DNA from: Chryseobacterium oryctis
GTDB taxonomy: Bacteria; Bacteroidota; Bacteroidia; Flavobacteriales; Weeksellaceae
Assembly (NCBI RefSeq): GCF_025971925.1
Contig: NZ_JAPDHV010000001.1
Location: forward strand, 124,001-188,000
DNA: 64,000 bases
Direction: 5' to 3'
Part shown: piece after piece, positions 24,380-30,957 of the stretch
How positions within the stretch are numbered: position 1 is the stretch's first letter
Layout of the letters: each line of letters begins with the position of its first letter
Translations under genes and position numbers: made by a program
Notes under the pieces: model-generated
Seen by the model: the letters and a program-made list of their open reading frames with translations, nothing else
The model's database searches: none
Told to the model about the DNA's origin: nothing

Positions 24380-25006
24380 ATGGCAATGACTAAAATGTTT
24401 AAAATTAATTATTTATATATTATTCTATTATTCGTTCTCTTTTTCTGTTCCGAAAAGCAACAGAAAACCGAGGAAGGAAAAGCTATTACAATATTAGTTC
24501 AGCCTTTTAAGGATTTGAATTCAGAAAGAGTTAATTTTGTAACAAAAGAAATAAAAAAGGTTTATCCTCACGTCAAAATCCTCAACCCAATAGATTTTCC
24601 TGAAAATGCTTATTACAAACCCAGAAACAGATACAGAGCGGATTCAATTATTAAATTTTTAAGTGAAAAAACTCAAAATGGTTTTGTAACGATAGGATTG
24701 ACTTCAAAAGATATAAGTGTTTCTAAAGGAAATATAAGTGATTTTGGAGTAATGGGATTAGGATACAGACCAGGAAAAGCATGTGTAGCTTCAGCTTTCA
24801 GATTGAATAAGCAAAAAACTAACGAACAGTTTTTCAAAGTTGCCATTCATGAGCTGGGTCACACACAAGGCTTGAAACATTGTCCTGAAAAAATGTGTTT
24901 CATGAGAGATGCGGAAGGAAAAAACCCAACAGATGAAGAAAAAGATTTCTGCAAAAAATGTAAATCGATTTTAATAACTAAAAATTGGAAATTTAGTTCA
25001 ATATGA
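24380..25006 (+). CDS. Archaemetzincin-like zinc protease, membrane-anchored or lipoprotein
   Basis: A 208-residue protein with the archaemetzincin (peptidase family M54) signature: HELGHTQGLKHC with His157, Glu158, His161 and the third ligand His167, then Cys168, Cys173, a conserved Met175, and CKKC (Cys191, Cys194). Residues 8-22 are hydrophobic and end FFCS, so Cys23 could be lipidated or the segment may be a simple anchor; the lipobox is weak. ATGs at 24380, 24386 and 24395 are possible starts. The gene overlaps barstar by 4 bp and follows the barnase after 6 bp. Archaemetzincin functions are poorly known. Confidence 0.87.
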   Translation: MAMTKMFKINYLYIILLFVLFFCSEKQQKTEEGKAITILVQPFKDLNSERVNFVTKEIKKVYPHVKILNPIDFPENAYYKPRNRYRADSIIKFLSEKTQNGFVTIGLTSKDISVSKGNISDFGVMGLGYRPGKACVASAFRLNKQKTNEQFFKVAIHELGHTQGLKHCPEKMCFMRDAEGKNPTDEEKDFCKKCKSILITKNWKFSSI

Positions 25007-25296
25007 AAACAATATATATAGATTTTACTGAGATTGGAGATTACGAAGATTTCTATGCTCAGCTAAAGGAAAAAATCACACTTCCCGATTATTTCGGGGA
25101 TAATTTGGATGCACTGTCTGATGTTATCAGCGGTGAATTGGAAATGCCTTTGCACATTGAATTTGTAAACATGAGTGTAGACCAGTTAGAAATTTTTGAG
25201 GATTTACTAACTACTCTGGAAGATGCCGAAGATGAAGTGGAAGATTTCTCTTTTACCTATTATCTTGAACAGTATGAAGATGATGAAAATGAATAG
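25003..25296 (+). CDS. Barstar-family ribonuclease inhibitor
   Basis: A 97-residue cytoplasmic protein with no signal peptide, as expected for immunity. The inhibitory helix TLPDYFGDNLDALSDVI (residues 26-42) aligns with barstar's LPEYYGENLDALWD: Tyr30, Asn34, Asp36 (barstar D35) and Asp40 (D39) are kept, but barstar Trp38 is Ser39. Its C-terminal third (65-97) is strongly acidic. It is the last gene of the cluster; the ATGA overlap with the protease gene couples their translation. A symmetrical terminator follows 21 bp later. Confidence 0.92.
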   Translation: MKTIYIDFTEIGDYEDFYAQLKEKITLPDYFGDNLDALSDVISGELEMPLHIEFVNMSVDQLEIFEDLLTTLEDAEDEVEDFSFTYYLEQYEDDENE

Positions 25297-25317
25297 TTTC
25301 AATAAAATAATAAAAAC

Positions 25318-25346
25318 AAAGACTCGCAGAAATTCTGCGAGTCTTT
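25318..25346. terminator. Bidirectional terminator after barstar
   Basis: GACTCGCAGAA / TTCTGCGAGTC arms extended by A and T runs, one central base. It separates the convergent barstar and HAF-repeat genes. Confidence 0.9.
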
Positions 25347-25382
25347 TGGTCTGTCTACTAATTTTTGTTTGTTTTTAAATTT

Positions 25383-26696
25383 TTACTGTTTTATGAATTT
25401 TAAACTTTGTGAAACTTCCCCTTTCACGAAAAACTCCAATACGTAAGTTCCTTTTGATAATGAAGAAACATCAATCTGGTTCCCAACAGAATCATAGGTT
25501 CTTACTTTTTGACCGACCATATTGTATAGCTGTGCTTTATCAATTTTATTTGCTCCTTTTATATTAATAACATCTTTTGCAGGATTCGGATAAATAGATA
25601 TTTTATCTTCATTATGTTTTACTCCCTCATTTGTAGATAGATAAGAAGTAATATCAAGATAAAAAGCTACTACCTGAAAAGATGAATCCCTTCCAACACC
25701 TACAATTTTTTTACCATCTTTAGATATTGCTAACGGAAGAGCCATTATGATACCCTGAGTATTAATCCCTAAGCTTGTAGCATAATCATTTAAATTAACT
25801 CTTCCACCTGCTGCAGTCCATATAAAACCTTCTCCAGCCGCCGCTGGTCCAGGAAAAGACCTGAAATAACCTAATACGGTTCCACCATCAGCGGAAATTG
25901 CTGTTGCTGCACCTCTGAAGAAGGCTGAGGAATTTGGATGTGTTATGTATATAAGTCCCGTTGTATTATTCCAAACATAAGGGTTCGGAATTGCGGAACC
26001 AATTATTGTATTTCCATCTGATGAAACACCTCCTGCTTCACCAACATTATTACCACTATTATCTGTAATGAAACTTTCTACACCATTTACCCATTTTGCA
26101 CCTCTTCGCGCTCCATCTGCTTGATCTTGCCACCCTACAACTACTGTTCCGTCATCATTTACCGCATTTGCTCTTGAACTTCTTTCAGGCACAATACTAC
26201 CCAAATCTACTACTCCATTGGTTGCATCCCATTTTACAGCGTGTGCCATAGCTCCTGTAAGCCATCCCAAACCAACAATTGTATTTCCATCGGGAGTCAT
26301 TCCCCAAGTAGAGCTTACACTTCCATCCCAACCTGTAGGAACAAGCCCTCCTCTATTCGTCCAGGTTGAAGTTGCAATATCATAAGTAGAAATTTCGTTA
26401 AAACCTGTTGCTGTATTAGTTATTGTAGATGCAATTTTAGTCCCATCAACAGAAATAGGAGCATTTCCAGCCAATGGATAGCCATTTGCAACCGTACCAA
26501 TCTGTACTAAACCATTTACAGCATCCCATTTAAATACCCCTCCACTTGTACTAAGACTTACAATTCCATTATTAGAAACACCTCCTGGTGTATAGGCACC
26601 AACTGCCATTACTGTTAATTGAGCTTCAATTTGTAAAAAATTAAACAAGAAAAGAGCTGTAGCAATTTTAATTGATAGTTTGTAAATATTTCTCAT
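25383..26696 (-). CDS. Secreted HAF-repeat protein with T9SS sorting domain
   Basis: A 437-residue secreted protein. Signal peptide about 1-25. The body carries HAF-type repeats, a roughly 40-60-residue pattern with W-D-x-x-N-G at strand ends and 'DGTVVVGWQ', 'DGNTIIGSA', 'DGNTIVGLG', 'DGGTVLGYF' turns, suggesting a beta-propeller. The C-terminus (about 360-437) is a type A T9SS sorting domain with KISIYPNPAKDVINI and ends VSQSLKFIKQ. Function is unknown; surface or extracellular location is likely. Its upstream region shares a repeated element with the next T9SS gene. Confidence 0.88.
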   Translation of the reverse strand: MRNIYKLSIKIATALFLFNFLQIEAQLTVMAVGAYTPGGVSNNGIVSLSTSGGVFKWDAVNGLVQIGTVANGYPLAGNAPISVDGTKIASTITNTATGFNEISTYDIATSTWTNRGGLVPTGWDGSVSSTWGMTPDGNTIVGLGWLTGAMAHAVKWDATNGVVDLGSIVPERSSRANAVNDDGTVVVGWQDQADGARRGAKWVNGVESFITDNSGNNVGEAGGVSSDGNTIIGSAIPNPYVWNNTTGLIYITHPNSSAFFRGAATAISADGGTVLGYFRSFPGPAAAGEGFIWTAAGGRVNLNDYATSLGINTQGIIMALPLAISKDGKKIVGVGRDSSFQVVAFYLDITSYLSTNEGVKHNEDKISIYPNPAKDVINIKGANKIDKAQLYNMVGQKVRTYDSVGNQIDVSSLSKGTYVLEFFVKGEVSQSLKFIKQ

Positions 26697-26729
26697 ATGT
26701 TTAGATTTAATGTTTCCTGATTATGGGAG

Positions 26730-26790
26730 CAATATTAATATTACATCTACTCATTGAAAAGAAATCAACTTTCATAATTCATGAATTCTA
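26730..26790 (-). promoter_or_regulatory. Copy A of a repeated upstream element
   Basis: A 61-bp sequence that matches 52 of 61 bases of copy B (28112-28172). It begins 34 bp before the HAF-repeat gene start. Read on the minus strand it contains the inverted repeat TTCAT-GAATT-ATGAA, a TTTTCAATG block and TAATATTG, which is close to the -7 consensus. The conserved parts suggest promoter plus operator; see findings. Confidence 0.65.
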
Positions 26791-26890
26791 TAAAACATAT
26801 ATAAACAAAACATTAATTTACAATGCTTTATAAAATTCATGAAACCTTCTCTCACTTACTTTATTTAGCCAAATACGAGATATTTAAAAT

Positions 26891-27994
26891 TTATTTTTTA
26901 ATAATTTTTGTTTGATATGTCTTTCCGTTTTCAAAAGTAAATTCTACAAAATAATTTCCACGGATCAACTTATTCATTCTCATTGAACTTATTCCTTTAC
27001 CTTGCTCAGAAAGTACTAATTTACCATCAACAGCATATACATTTAGTTTTACTACATTAATTTTAGAATTAATATGCAATACATCTTCTACAGGATTTGG
27101 ATAAAAACTAAAATCTTTGCTGTTTCCTACTTCGTTTACAGCTAAACATCCTGAAGAATTTACTGTAACAGCCAGACGAGTAGTACTTTCACACGCTCCA
27201 ACCACTTGAGAGGCATAATAGGTAGTACCACTAACCAACACAGTGTTAGCAGGAAGTAAAGTTCCCCCCGTTGCATCTGTATACCATTTTATATTAGATC
27301 CCGAGACAATTAAATCGGTCAGAGTTTGTGATGAACAAAAAACCTGAGAAGAGTTCCCTGTAGGAGCAGGTGTGCTTCCGTCACATATTTCAAAAATTAC
27401 ATGATCTAAATAAGCAAAATTCCCTGCTTGATTCACATTGTTTTTTATTCCTTTAAAATTTACTCTATTCGTTCCTGCGGGAAGCAGTATATTTTTCGTA
27501 ACCCACTGAGTCGCATTTGGAGTAAAAATTGATGAAGTTATACCCCCTGTATTTAACTCTCCCGATTTTCCGATTTCATAATCATGAGCTAATGTATACG
27601 TTTGACCTCCATCAGTTGAATATTCTAATAAAATATGATCATCTGCAAAAACAGTCTGAAGTGCAACAGGCATTGTATATCGGTTAGCCGCTGCGAATTG
27701 AAACGAAACACCAACCTGCCCATTAGTAGAGTTATTAAAAACTGGGGATTTAACATTATAGGTAGACAAACCTGCACTGTTATAAAAATTATACATTAAA
27801 CTTCCGCCAGTACCTCCATTGGGCGAGTTTACTGAGGTATTCTCAACAACAATAGTTGAAGGATTGGAATAGTCCCATTGACTCTGAGTTGTACTTCCTC
27901 CAAAATTTTCAGTGTAAGGAAAGTTGACCTGTGCACCAATTAATATAGGAAAAAAAGCTAAAAGCTTAAAAAAACGAAAGTAGTTCTTCTTCAT
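26891..27994 (-). CDS. Secreted jelly-roll protein with Ig-like and T9SS sorting domains
   Basis: A 367-residue protein. I use the ATG at 27994, giving a signal peptide MKKNYFRFFKLLAFFPILIG. A beta-sandwich region (about 25-205) is rich in Ser, Asn and aromatic residues and holds the phrase WVTKNILLPAGTNRVNFKG. Next is an Ig-like domain typical of Bacteroidota surface proteins (IKWYTDATGGTLLP and SGTTYYASQVVGAC, about 235-280). The C-terminal sorting domain runs from FSFYPNPVEDVLHI (about 297). It is likely a secreted or surface protein, perhaps ligand-binding. It is divergent from the TPR-AraC regulator gene. Confidence 0.85.
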   Translation of the reverse strand: MKKNYFRFFKLLAFFPILIGAQVNFPYTENFGGSTTQSQWDYSNPSTIVVENTSVNSPNGGTGGSLMYNFYNSAGLSTYNVKSPVFNNSTNGQVGVSFQFAAANRYTMPVALQTVFADDHILLEYSTDGGQTYTLAHDYEIGKSGELNTGGITSSIFTPNATQWVTKNILLPAGTNRVNFKGIKNNVNQAGNFAYLDHVIFEICDGSTPAPTGNSSQVFCSSQTLTDLIVSGSNIKWYTDATGGTLLPANTVLVSGTTYYASQVVGACESTTRLAVTVNSSGCLAVNEVGNSKDFSFYPNPVEDVLHINSKINVVKLNVYAVDGKLVLSEQGKGISSMRMNKLIRGNYFVEFTFENGKTYQTKIIKK

Positions 27995-28111
27995 AAATAA
28001 TAACATTAATTGTTATTTTCCAGATAACTTTAAAAAAGACATTTTATAAAATTATTCTAAAAAAGTAAATTCAAAAATTACTATATCATTAACATTTTGA
28101 ATTAATGATTA

Positions 28112-28172
28112 CAATATTAATATTATATTTACCCATTGAAAAGAATTAAGCTTTCATAATTCATGAAATTTT
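28112..28172. promoter_or_regulatory. Copy B of the repeated upstream element
   Basis: Lies in the intergenic region between the second T9SS gene (minus) and the TPR-AraC regulator (plus). The inverted repeat is perfect here, TTTCAT-AATTC-ATGAAA (28153-28169), and the TTTTCAATG and TAATATTG blocks are conserved. It could regulate both divergent genes. Confidence 0.65.
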
Positions 28173-28249
28173 AAAGTTTAAAGTTTAAAAACAACTAAAA
28201 ATCAATTACATAAAAAAAAATTACATTGGATAAAGATTTCACTGAAATA

Positions 28250-29830
28250 TTGAAAAAAAGTATAAAAATTTATATTTTTTTACTTTTCTCAATATTTGTT
28301 AATGGACAATCAAGCCCCGATTTTAATATTTTAGCTGATAAAGCTTTTCAGAAATTATATCAAAATCCTGATGATTGTATCAATTACTCGTTAAGCATTC
28401 TGATCAGTGACCAAAACATTGAGCATCGGATTGTATTACGAAACATTATTTCTCAGGCTTATGCCATGAAAGGAGATTATGTACAGGCTGTAAATATCTC
28501 TAGCCAGAATGATGAATCTTCTGAAAAAGAAAAGCTATCTTACTTCATGCAAGTATTTGCAAACTACAGTCTTGCAGATCAATATCAGAATTTAGATCTT
28601 TATAACCAGTCTCAAAAAATCATCTCAACCCTTCTTACAGACAAAAAATTATTAAATAGCGACGATTTAAAAATAAAAGCCACAGTTGGAAAGCTGTATC
28701 AATTACAAGCCTTAAACCTAGGAATCAAAAAATATAATTTAGCCCTAGAAAATCTAAATAAAAGTGATTCTTATCTTAACTATAATAATGAAGAGAATTT
28801 TATTCTTAAAATTGAGAACAGGATTTTCAGTTCTGTTTATCTTATGCGTCAAAACAAGATGGAAGAAGCAAAAAATCTTCTTGAGGGTACCTTATTACTT
28901 ATAGAGCAAAACGGGAAACATTATTATTATCTCAAATCTTTTGTTTACGAAAATTTAGCACGATACTATTTTCTGCAAGGGAACTACACTCTGTCTATCA
29001 AAAATTCAGATACTGCTCTTTCAAATCTTCAAAATCTACCTTATAACACATTAAAAGCCAGAATATATGAGTTATTAGCAAAAAATTATTTTGCATTACA
29101 TAATGATGAAAAATATCATGAATACAACAAACTTTACACTGAAACCAATGTAAAAATAGACACAAACACTAAAGAAGGTATTCGATACATCGTAAAGCTA
29201 GTTGAAAACTACCACAACAAAAGTCTTGAATTTCAACAACAAAATGAATTAAAGAATTTTTGGATTATAACTACATTTTTTTCTCTAGCTGCTATTATTC
29301 TATTGATTTATTTTTTGTCACTTAATAGCAAAAGTAGGGATTTGAAAAAGCAGTCAGAGTTCTTTGTAAAGCAAAAAAAATGGGAAAGCACCCATCTGGA
29401 AAGTACTCAAAAAGAATTAGAACACCAAGAAGTAATTCTTACTGAGAGAGATACAAATAAAATTTCAAAAGAAAAAGAAGATGAAATTCTTCAAAAGCTT
29501 GAAGAATGGGAACTCTCTCATGCTTATTTAAGTAAAAGTATGTCGCTTTCCACGCTTTCTGTACACATGGGGGTTAATACAAAATATCTTTCTGAGGTAA
29601 TTAATTCTAATAAAGGAAAAAATTTCAACGGATATATTAATGAACTGAGAATTAATCATATTGCTCATTTATTAAAAACAAACCCTACCTTTTTGAATTA
29701 CAAAGTGAGCTATTTAGCTGAATTTTCAGGATTTTCTTCTCACAGTGCATTCACAACTATCTTCAAATCTATTACAGGCATGTCTCCTAATGCTTATATT
29801 CAAGAAATCAGTAAAAACAGAGTATCATGA
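28250..29830 (+). CDS. Membrane-bound TPR regulator with C-terminal AraC-type HTH
   Basis: A regulatory protein of about 526 residues. The frame has no ATG near its start; TTG codons at 28226 and 28250 are candidates, and the second gives a clean signal-peptide-like N-terminus (LKKSIKIYIFLLFSIFVNGQ), so I prefer it. The periplasmic part consists of TPR-like helical repeats. One transmembrane helix (about 337-360) is followed by a Lys/Glu-rich coiled segment and an AraC-family DNA-binding domain (about 430-526) with SLSTLSVHMGVNTKYLSEVI and FSGFSSHSAFTTIFKSITGMSP. It probably senses an envelope signal and binds DNA from the membrane. It overlaps the next gene by 4 bp. Confidence 0.88.
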   Translation: MKKSIKIYIFLLFSIFVNGQSSPDFNILADKAFQKLYQNPDDCINYSLSILISDQNIEHRIVLRNIISQAYAMKGDYVQAVNISSQNDESSEKEKLSYFMQVFANYSLADQYQNLDLYNQSQKIISTLLTDKKLLNSDDLKIKATVGKLYQLQALNLGIKKYNLALENLNKSDSYLNYNNEENFILKIENRIFSSVYLMRQNKMEEAKNLLEGTLLLIEQNGKHYYYLKSFVYENLARYYFLQGNYTLSIKNSDTALSNLQNLPYNTLKARIYELLAKNYFALHNDEKYHEYNKLYTETNVKIDTNTKEGIRYIVKLVENYHNKSLEFQQQNELKNFWIITTFFSLAAIILLIYFLSLNSKSRDLKKQSEFFVKQKKWESTHLESTQKELEHQEVILTERDTNKISKEKEDEILQKLEEWELSHAYLSKSMSLSTLSVHMGVNTKYLSEVINSNKGKNFNGYINELRINHIAHLLKTNPTFLNYKVSYLAEFSGFSSHSAFTTIFKSITGMSPNAYIQEISKNRVS

Positions 29831-30957
29831 GAATAATTTTTAAAGCCTTAGTATTTGCTTTTTTAATATATGGAATGACTGTTACTGCACAAGAAATCCC
29901 GTTTGATACAATATTAAAAAAAGCCCGTTCAGAAATCTATAATAATCCGGACAATTCAATTGCAATTGCCAATAATTTATTGAAAAAAAATAAAAATGTT
30001 GATCAGACAATTCAAATATATATGCTTCTTTCAACTGCAAACATTGCGAAAAGAAATTTTGATGAATCATTACAATATATTTTGAAAGCAAAAGAATTAG
30101 CTCAAAAATCTAATAATCCCAAAACCCAAGTAAGGGTTCTAACTACCGTTGCAATTCAATATCAACAAATGGAACTTTTTAGTAAAAGTTTTGAGACATT
30201 AGAAGAAGCTGATATATATTTAGCCAAACTTCCGGATAGTATTCCTGAAAAACACATTGAAACAGCACGAGGCTATGCCATTCGTGGAATGATATATAAA
30301 AGCCAGTCTAATTCTGAAATTGCTCTTAAAAAGTTTTTAAAATCTATTGAAAGCTTTGAAAAAGCAGGTTCTAAAAAAGATACTTATGCCAATATAAGTG
30401 TCGTATATTATAATATTGGCTATTGCTATCTTTACCTCAACCAAACTGATAAAGCCCACGAAGCTTTTGTACAATCTATAGACTATGCCAAAAAGAATAA
30501 TGCAAAAAGTTTAGAAGCATTTGCTCTAAAAGGGATGTCTGAACTTTATAAGCAAAATCGAGAAAACCAAGCTGCTTTAAACCTTTTAATAAAAGCGGAA
30601 AATCTATGTAGAGAGACTAAAGACCTTATTTTAAATGAAGGTATTTATAAAGAAATGGCTGACAATTATTTGGCAATGGGCAAACAAGATTTATATCAAA
30701 AATACAATAGAAAGTTTTTTGAAATGCGCTTCAAAAGAGGTCAAAATGAGCTAAAATCCATCAATCATGACATTAACAACCACAATAGTGAAACTTTGAA
30801 GAAAAGTGAAAAGATTAAAACCCATTATTATTGGCTCAAGTTTTTTGTCATTTGTTTGGGTTCTATCATTATCATCTTTCTTTTATATTTTATATTAAAA
30901 ACCAAGAAACAAAATAATAAATATCAAAAAGAAATTCAGCAAATGCTTCGTTCTTAA
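29827..30957 (+). CDS. TPR membrane protein lacking the HTH domain
   Basis: A 376-residue paralogue of the sensory half of the upstream regulator. It has a signal peptide (1-21, ending VTAQ), five or six TPR-like repeats (about 35-300, such as 'SVVYYNIGYCYLYLNQTDKAHEAFVQSIDYAKKNN'-type units) and one transmembrane helix at about 338-358. It ends only 17 residues after the helix (QNNKYQKEIQQMLRS), so there is no DNA-binding domain. The start ATG overlaps the regulator's stop (ATGA), implying coupled translation. It may form a heterodimer with the regulator and tune it. Confidence 0.85.
   Translation: MRIIFKALVFAFLIYGMTVTAQEIPFDTILKKARSEIYNNPDNSIAIANNLLKKNKNVDQTIQIYMLLSTANIAKRNFDESLQYILKAKELAQKSNNPKTQVRVLTTVAIQYQQMELFSKSFETLEEADIYLAKLPDSIPEKHIETARGYAIRGMIYKSQSNSEIALKKFLKSIESFEKAGSKKDTYANISVVYYNIGYCYLYLNQTDKAHEAFVQSIDYAKKNNAKSLEAFALKGMSELYKQNRENQAALNLLIKAENLCRETKDLILNEGIYKEMADNYLAMGKQDLYQKYNRKFFEMRFKRGQNELKSINHDINNHNSETLKKSEKIKTHYYWLKFFVICLGSIIIIFLLYFILKTKKQNNKYQKEIQQMLRS

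Follow-up and report, generated by a model that had tools for sequence, protein, structure and literature searches.

A 61-bp element of Chryseobacterium as predicted operator and promoter of a small T9SS regulon under an adjacent TPR-AraC regulator

The locus described here lies in a window of 64,000 nucleotides of Chryseobacterium oryctis, by which we mean the whole stretch of DNA that was analysed, and it comprises two T9SS cargo genes on the minus strand and two TPR genes on the plus strand. The first cargo gene (25383-26696, hereafter T9SS-1) encodes 437 aa with a Por_Secre_tail domain (Pfam, 2.7e-12) and a sub-cutoff HAF-repeat match (NCBIfam). The second (26891-28006, hereafter cargo 2) encodes 371 aa with Ig_7 and Por_Secre_tail domains (Pfam) and is an extra gene between T9SS-1 and the regulator. 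In both proteins the C-terminal sorting domain Por_Secre_tail scores above its cut-off.

The regulator gene (28226-29830, plus strand) encodes a TPR region (TPR_12), a transmembrane stretch at aa 347-365 recognized by hydropathy, and a C-terminal AraC-type HTH (HTH_18, 1.4e-12), which exceeds the curated cut-offs of both models (HTH_18 48.2 bits vs 33.6; HTH_AraC 26.8 vs 26.6). The transmembrane stretch sits between TPR and HTH, and it was found in all 55 regulator proteins tested, from a scan of 57 loci of which two were dropped for a longest frame below 450 aa; a shorter hydrophobic N-terminus is visible by eye but falls below the scan threshold. The closest relative of this regulator is that of Chryseobacterium sp. 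FH2, at 72%. The regulator gene of the window is overlapped by 4 bases by that of an HTH-less TPR partner (29827-30957, plus strand; TPR_12), which has a hydrophobic N-terminus at aa 3-21 and a C-terminal transmembrane stretch at aa 339-357 and is 22% identical to the TPR part of the regulator (E 1.2e-9). No match to a kinase family was found in either protein at E 0.001.

Both cargo genes are preceded by a copy of the same 61-bp element on the minus strand. Copy 1 (26730-26790) would be the promoter and predicted operator of T9SS-1, and copy 2 (28112-28172) the promoter and predicted operator between cargo 2 and the regulator gene. The two are identical without gaps at 52 of 61 bases, while the 10-bp blocks flanking them match at 1-7 positions of 10, near chance, and the next-best 61-mers in the window reach 35/61 with copy 1 and 39/61 with copy 2 as query; the counts given in the initial annotation, which had placed the similarity far above that of the neighbouring DNA, were thus reproduced exactly. 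A blastn search of the whole 3.53-Mb genome returned two good matches only, at E 1.6e-36 (self) and 6.6e-15. The third match (E 8e-4, 33 bases) lies at the junction of two convergent reading frames and not before a gene. Against the R1 profile the copies score 46.7 bits (copy 1) and 55.5 bits (copy 2), although each was left out of it. The element occurs twice in this strain because the second T9SS gene, with a copy of its own, lies between the first T9SS gene and the regulator. The operator core, as it reads in copy 2, is also seen as AATTCATGAAA at 26834-26844; this sequence lies 58 bases from the copy-1 core and some 50 bases beyond the end of the cargo-2 gene, and it may be what is left of another element.

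A scan with the regulator yielded 63 loci, 54 of them from Chryseobacterium and some from the same genome. In 53 of these 54, a sequence that matches the element at 40 or more of its 61 bases stands upstream of the regulator, the same place as that of the second copy between T9SS gene and regulator in the window, as had been proposed. The exception is L060, a draft-genome locus in which the regulator is shortened and T9SS-1 is absent from that place. The usual gene order is T9SS-1, element, regulator and TPR partner. In a second class of 13 loci (class 2) T9SS-1 is replaced by a T9SS gene of about 740-790 aa, and the three such genes examined (L028, L045, L027) encode GEVED, fn3 and sorting domains. 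The regulator of L027 groups with class 1, yet its T9SS gene is of the GEVED/fn3 type (756 aa), and its predicted operator (L027:4823-4848) is palindromic over 26 bp save for the two central bases. IgGFc-binding-domain proteins are found beside paralogous modules, at L028:1-2143 next to the class-2 T9SS gene and, in a more distant module, at L134:3953-6595 next to the regulator. Outside the genus, L063 (Aequorivita) carries a regulator of about 29% identity, behind which come a gene of 376 aa and then a T9SS cargo gene in the same direction.

Within the element, the promoter boxes can be assigned by position. The -7 box TAATATTG occupies 26730-26737 in copy 1 and 28112-28119 in copy 2 (minus strand), with predicted transcription starts at about 26725 and about 28107; both TAATATTG and CTTTTCAATG (minus strand) are present in the two copies. 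Bacteroidetes promoters have the -7 consensus TAnnTTTG at -12 to -5 (PMC9723704, available part), to which TAATATTG fits at 5 of the 6 specified bases. All eight of its bases are invariant in 57 elements (40 of class 1, 13 of class 2 and 4 unlinked copies); the box, described earlier as near the consensus, is one base off TAnnTTTG. A CTTT box follows at 26758-26761 in copy 1 and 28140-28143 in copy 2 (minus strand), for which a -33-like role may be assumed. Class 1 and the unlinked copies conserve the corresponding AAAG (element positions 29-32), of which class 2 retains the middle AA only. The TTTTCAATG block named in the initial annotation survives accordingly in part: its CTTT is kept as just described, less so in class 2, but its CAATG is not kept between species, and the CATTGA spacer common to both window copies occurs at that place in only 3 of 53 other loci.

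When a TTG-type -33 box was looked for 17-23 bases upstream of the -7 box, a combined TTG plus -7 score of at least 8/9 was reached by 47% of 53 loci vs 10% of shuffles, the window copies scoring 7/9. On the T9SS strand the promoter-like match exceeds shuffles; the scan of the regulator strand for a promoter toward the regulator gave scores at or below shuffles. Two other explanations of the conserved 61 bases were rejected. The distance from the element to a fixed regulator residue is a multiple of three in 12 of 18 loci and not in the other 6, so a coding role is unlikely, and a structured RNA or riboswitch found no Rfam match at gathering score in 25000-29500.

Upstream of the boxes lies a 26-bp dyad, the predicted operator, at 26769-26794 in copy 1 (one mismatch to the consensus, at the last base) and at 28151-28176 in copy 2, which is exact and the sole exact match in the genome. 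Of 105 possible centres, that of the dyad at 52.5 ranks first in all four sequence sets, with complementarities of 0.69 in class 1, 0.65 in class 2, 0.67 in the unlinked set and 0.73 in the window, vs medians of 0.30-0.35. An inverted repeat TTTCAT-N5-ATGAAA had been reported for each copy. A dyad does exist, but in the conserved one the centre is 3.5 bp more distant from the -7 box than claimed, the earlier centre of 49.0 being second-ranked in three of the four sets, and the exact motif is confined to copy 2, copy 1 reading TTTCAT-N5-ATGAAT. Counted from the -7 position given in the available part of PMC9723704, the dyad spans about -44 to -69 with its centre at about -57.

In the 37 elements compared, strict complementarity at the dyad centre is 67% and drops to 17-45% when slid by 1-3 columns; with G-T pairing allowed the values are 77% and 28-56%. 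Two-sided changes number 18 cells at 6 pairs under strict pairing and 17 cells at 5 pairs with G-T allowed, the latter count falling to 0-4 when slid. Few independent events underlie this signal, since much of it comes from pair 43/62, which separates the two classes (G/C in 13/13 of class 2; T/A in 21, A/A in 14, G/A in 4 and C/A in 1 of the 40 of class 1), and further pair types were not unusual in a shuffle measure (108/500). All three sets (class 1, class 2 and unlinked) conserve CTT at 40-42, TTC at 49-51 and AAG at 63-65; class 1 and the unlinked set also conserve GAA at 54-56, and class 2 has it shifted by one base (TTC-N3-GAA). A direct repeat of AAAG with a spacing of 33 bp was likewise considered as a possible pair of half-sites.

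With one mismatch, the dyad occurs in its own genome at copy 1 and at 7 further sites (1 for the reversed pattern). Each of the 7 falls within a reading frame (188 to 900 aa), which leaves the two element copies as the sole dyads with up to one mismatch that are not inside genes, and a wide regulon in this genome was rejected on the same finding.

To follow the element through the genus, a profile was built from 37 elements, the window copies being excluded, and run on 148 genomes. Strong matches were defined as those of at least 38 bits, a cut-off chosen after a gap from 38 to 26 bits had been seen among the matches listed, and a regulator was counted as present at a match of E 1e-70 or better. 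On these terms there are 96 strong matches in 76 of the 148 genomes, all 76 being among the 77 regulator-positive ones, and none in the 71 regulator-negative genomes of the genus. In the 77th regulator-positive genome, G090, the regulator match begins at base 122 of its contig. A search of 296 genomes across the family, with Chryseobacterium among them, gave no strong match beyond the genus. The T9SS-1 orthologue occurs in 62 of the 148 genomes, all of them regulator-positive as compared by eye. More distant regulators, of 46-47% identity (G139, G018), are accompanied by diverged elements only.

Among the 96 strong matches, 91 lie in regulator clusters, 4 before orthologues of cargo 2 and 1 in G129; the genome-wide search for further copies proposed earlier thus turned up none before an unrelated gene. 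Most (87/96) are divergent and within 400 bases of the regulator match. Three precede T9SS-1 in two-copy clusters (the window, G028 and G124), and that of G118 lies 501 bases from the match to a regulator that is broken into two frames. The layout of G028 is that of the window, with the extra T9SS gene between T9SS-1 and the regulator, and the regulators of the two strains each pair with a relative whose T9SS-1 directly adjoins the regulator; this speaks against a single origin of the cargo-2 insertion, although one origin would be compatible with the cargo-2 tree. In C. indologenes J31 (L033/L133; G124 C78) T9SS-1 and the element are duplicated in tandem, and between the duplicated copies (G124/L033) there remains a 96-aa frame with a piece of the regulator.

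The co-occurrence of linked copies with the regulator is partly due to one shared intergenic region. Cases independent of linkage are five unlinked matches, three of them nearly identical, and one in another genus. Four of the unlinked copies stand directly before cargo-2 orthologues (G027, G112, G126, G146), the predicted start codon being 19-33 bp away. The remaining one (G129:C9:62175-62243, L127; 46.6 bits) has no reading frame directly behind it, the next frame on the same strand being about 740 bases away. Cargo-2 orthologues are present in 10 of 173 genomes, and six of them carry the element (G000, G028, G112, G027, G126, G146). No element was found for those of G054, G038 and G124, where the best similarity within 400 bases upstream is 31-33/61, and no profile match near the gene in G058; all four genomes contain the regulator. 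The cargo-2 copy of G058 is broken, and that of G054 carries a stop according to the search.

In other genera, weak profile matches in 4 genomes lie beside a regulator homologue in one (G175) and not in three. The regulator of G175 is 45-47% identical, and its frame is preceded, at 232 bases, by an exact dyad; in place of the -7 box there is TTTATGTG, and AAAG reads AAAC. Regulator and dyad are flanked by cytidylate kinase and SHMT genes, the neighbours also including a YtxH-type gene, and a homologue was found for neither T9SS gene within the 12 kb examined. Within Chryseobacterium, exact dyads occur in 64 of 77 regulator-positive genomes (84 sites) and in 11 of 71 regulator-negative ones (11 sites), vs 12 sites for the reversed pattern in the 148 genomes; at least 12 of the 84 lie away from an element, which is about the background rate. 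Together with the presence of the dyad in G175 without T9SS genes, these counts link the dyad with the regulator and not with the T9SS gene.

We therefore arrive at a reading in which the element is the operator of the adjacent TPR-AraC regulator, to which we assign a probability of roughly 0.8 from sequence comparison. That the adjacent regulator is the likely controller follows from the element being kept beside its gene across the genus, and binding of the regulator near the promoter that it would control is supported by the conserved dyad upstream of the boxes. A conserved promoter box and dyad, their tie to the regulator, the unlinked copies and the persistence of the dyad in another genus emerge from the comparison. 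The initial annotation had seen here the operator and promoter of a small regulon under the adjacent regulator, and this proposal gains from the confinement of strong matches to regulator-positive genomes, from the four unlinked copies before orthologues of the second T9SS gene, from the exact dyad in G175 and from the two-sided changes in the dyad.

Under this reading, each copy would serve as promoter and operator of one T9SS cargo gene, with the -7 box, the -33-like CTTT box and the dyad following one another outward from the gene. A dimer of the AraC-type domain of the transmembrane regulator would occupy the dyad and, from this upstream position, activate the T9SS genes. The TPR part, which is probably periplasmic and perhaps paired with the partner protein, would receive a signal, and the copy beside the regulator may also allow self-control. 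Physical binding, activation, periplasmic sensing and its signal, the role of the partner and autoregulation are all inferred. More speculatively, and in our view improbably, regulator and partner could form a membrane receptor whose periplasmic TPRs sense passing T9SS cargo or its peptide. If so, the dyad would complete a feedback circuit through which the traffic of cargo sets the transcription of its genes, and such genes could join or leave the circuit by taking the element with them.

The strongest competitor keeps the same site and the same regulator and overlaps with the operator reading in everything but sign: the T9SS genes would be repressed until a signal arrives, or the regulator would mainly repress its own gene. 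The persistence of the dyad beside the regulator alone in G175 agrees with this, as does the regulator strand, on which no promoter-like match exists, so that the regulator promoter may overlap the dyad. Before both T9SS genes, however, the dyad lies upstream of the -33-like box and not over the -7 box, and a position upstream of the -33 box is the usual place of an activator. Given the operator claim, activation would be favoured over repression by about three to one, judged from position alone, and we regard repression as the less likely sign, though one to be taken seriously.

Much less probable is that the element is a duplicated strong promoter only, copied recently when the second T9SS gene entered, with the regulator taking no part. 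The CATTGA spacer, scarce in other loci and common to both window copies, would fit a recent duplication or conversion, and G124/L033 offers a plain case of tandem duplication with a piece of the regulator gene. Yet the unlinked copies of G027, G126 and G146 keep boxes and dyad while their -7/-33 spacer differs, G175 keeps the dyad beside the regulator without a -7 box, and the regulator-negative genomes of the genus lack strong matches. Equally improbable in our estimate, the boxes could be a promoter recognized by a special sigma factor, ECF or variant, with the dyad serving as the site of another, unlinked regulator. The invariance of the -7 bases, stricter than TAnnTTTG, speaks for such a factor, as does the use of an ECF-type motif by several T9SS components in F. 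psychrophilum (PMC9723704, available part), but the strict co-occurrence with this particular regulator speaks against it, and so does a dyad that is retained in another genus where the -7 box is missing. Very improbable, finally, are a structured RNA leader and a repeated or mobile sequence such as a transposon end or REP-like repeat, which the inverted repeat and the direct duplication flanking one gene might suggest. The genome has only two strong copies, on which ground the mobile repeat was rejected; against the RNA leader stand a dyad upstream of the predicted transcription start and the Rfam scan of 25000-29500, whose three weak matches (E 0.1-0.2) all fall outside the element.

The operator reading provides an exact target of 26 bp, operators of two paralogous classes and a module of three or four genes; if true, it would connect surface proteins secreted by the T9SS with a one-component sensor anchored in the membrane. 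The small regulon would be new, though of a known kind; among the matches listed from the open literature, no paper dealt with a regulator of this type, or with its DNA site, in Chryseobacterium. Its promoter part may be compared to the sigma-A promoters of Bacteroidetes, with TAATATTG as a -7-like box and a TTG/CTTT element upstream, and differs from them in that the box is one base off the consensus and invariant at all eight positions. Control of T9SS-related genes within the same phylum also links it to the ECF-sigma systems of F. psychrophilum (motif SM6) and P. gingivalis; as far as the available part of PMC9723704 goes, these concern several secretion-system components, whereas cargo genes and an AraC-type site are involved here (PMC9723704).

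The AraC/XylS family shares with the regulator the C-terminal HTH_18/HTH_AraC domain and a site upstream of the promoter boxes, but here a TPR part and a transmembrane stretch take the place of a soluble sensor. Members of the AraC family usually bind direct repeats, and in this element a 26-bp inverted repeat fits best. A sensor with TPRs is known from Porphyromonas gingivalis, where FimS, an inner-membrane histidine kinase with periplasmic TPRs, controls surface proteins through FimR (PMC11053733, available part). The regulator described here has the TPR sensor part and the transmembrane stretch in common with FimS, and its HTH-less partner matches the FimS model below cut-off (27.6 bits vs a cut-off of 600). 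By analogy of architecture, FimS would be the nearest described sensor that we have met, but it is a kinase, whereas here the HTH is carried by the sensor itself and in neither protein was a kinase domain found.
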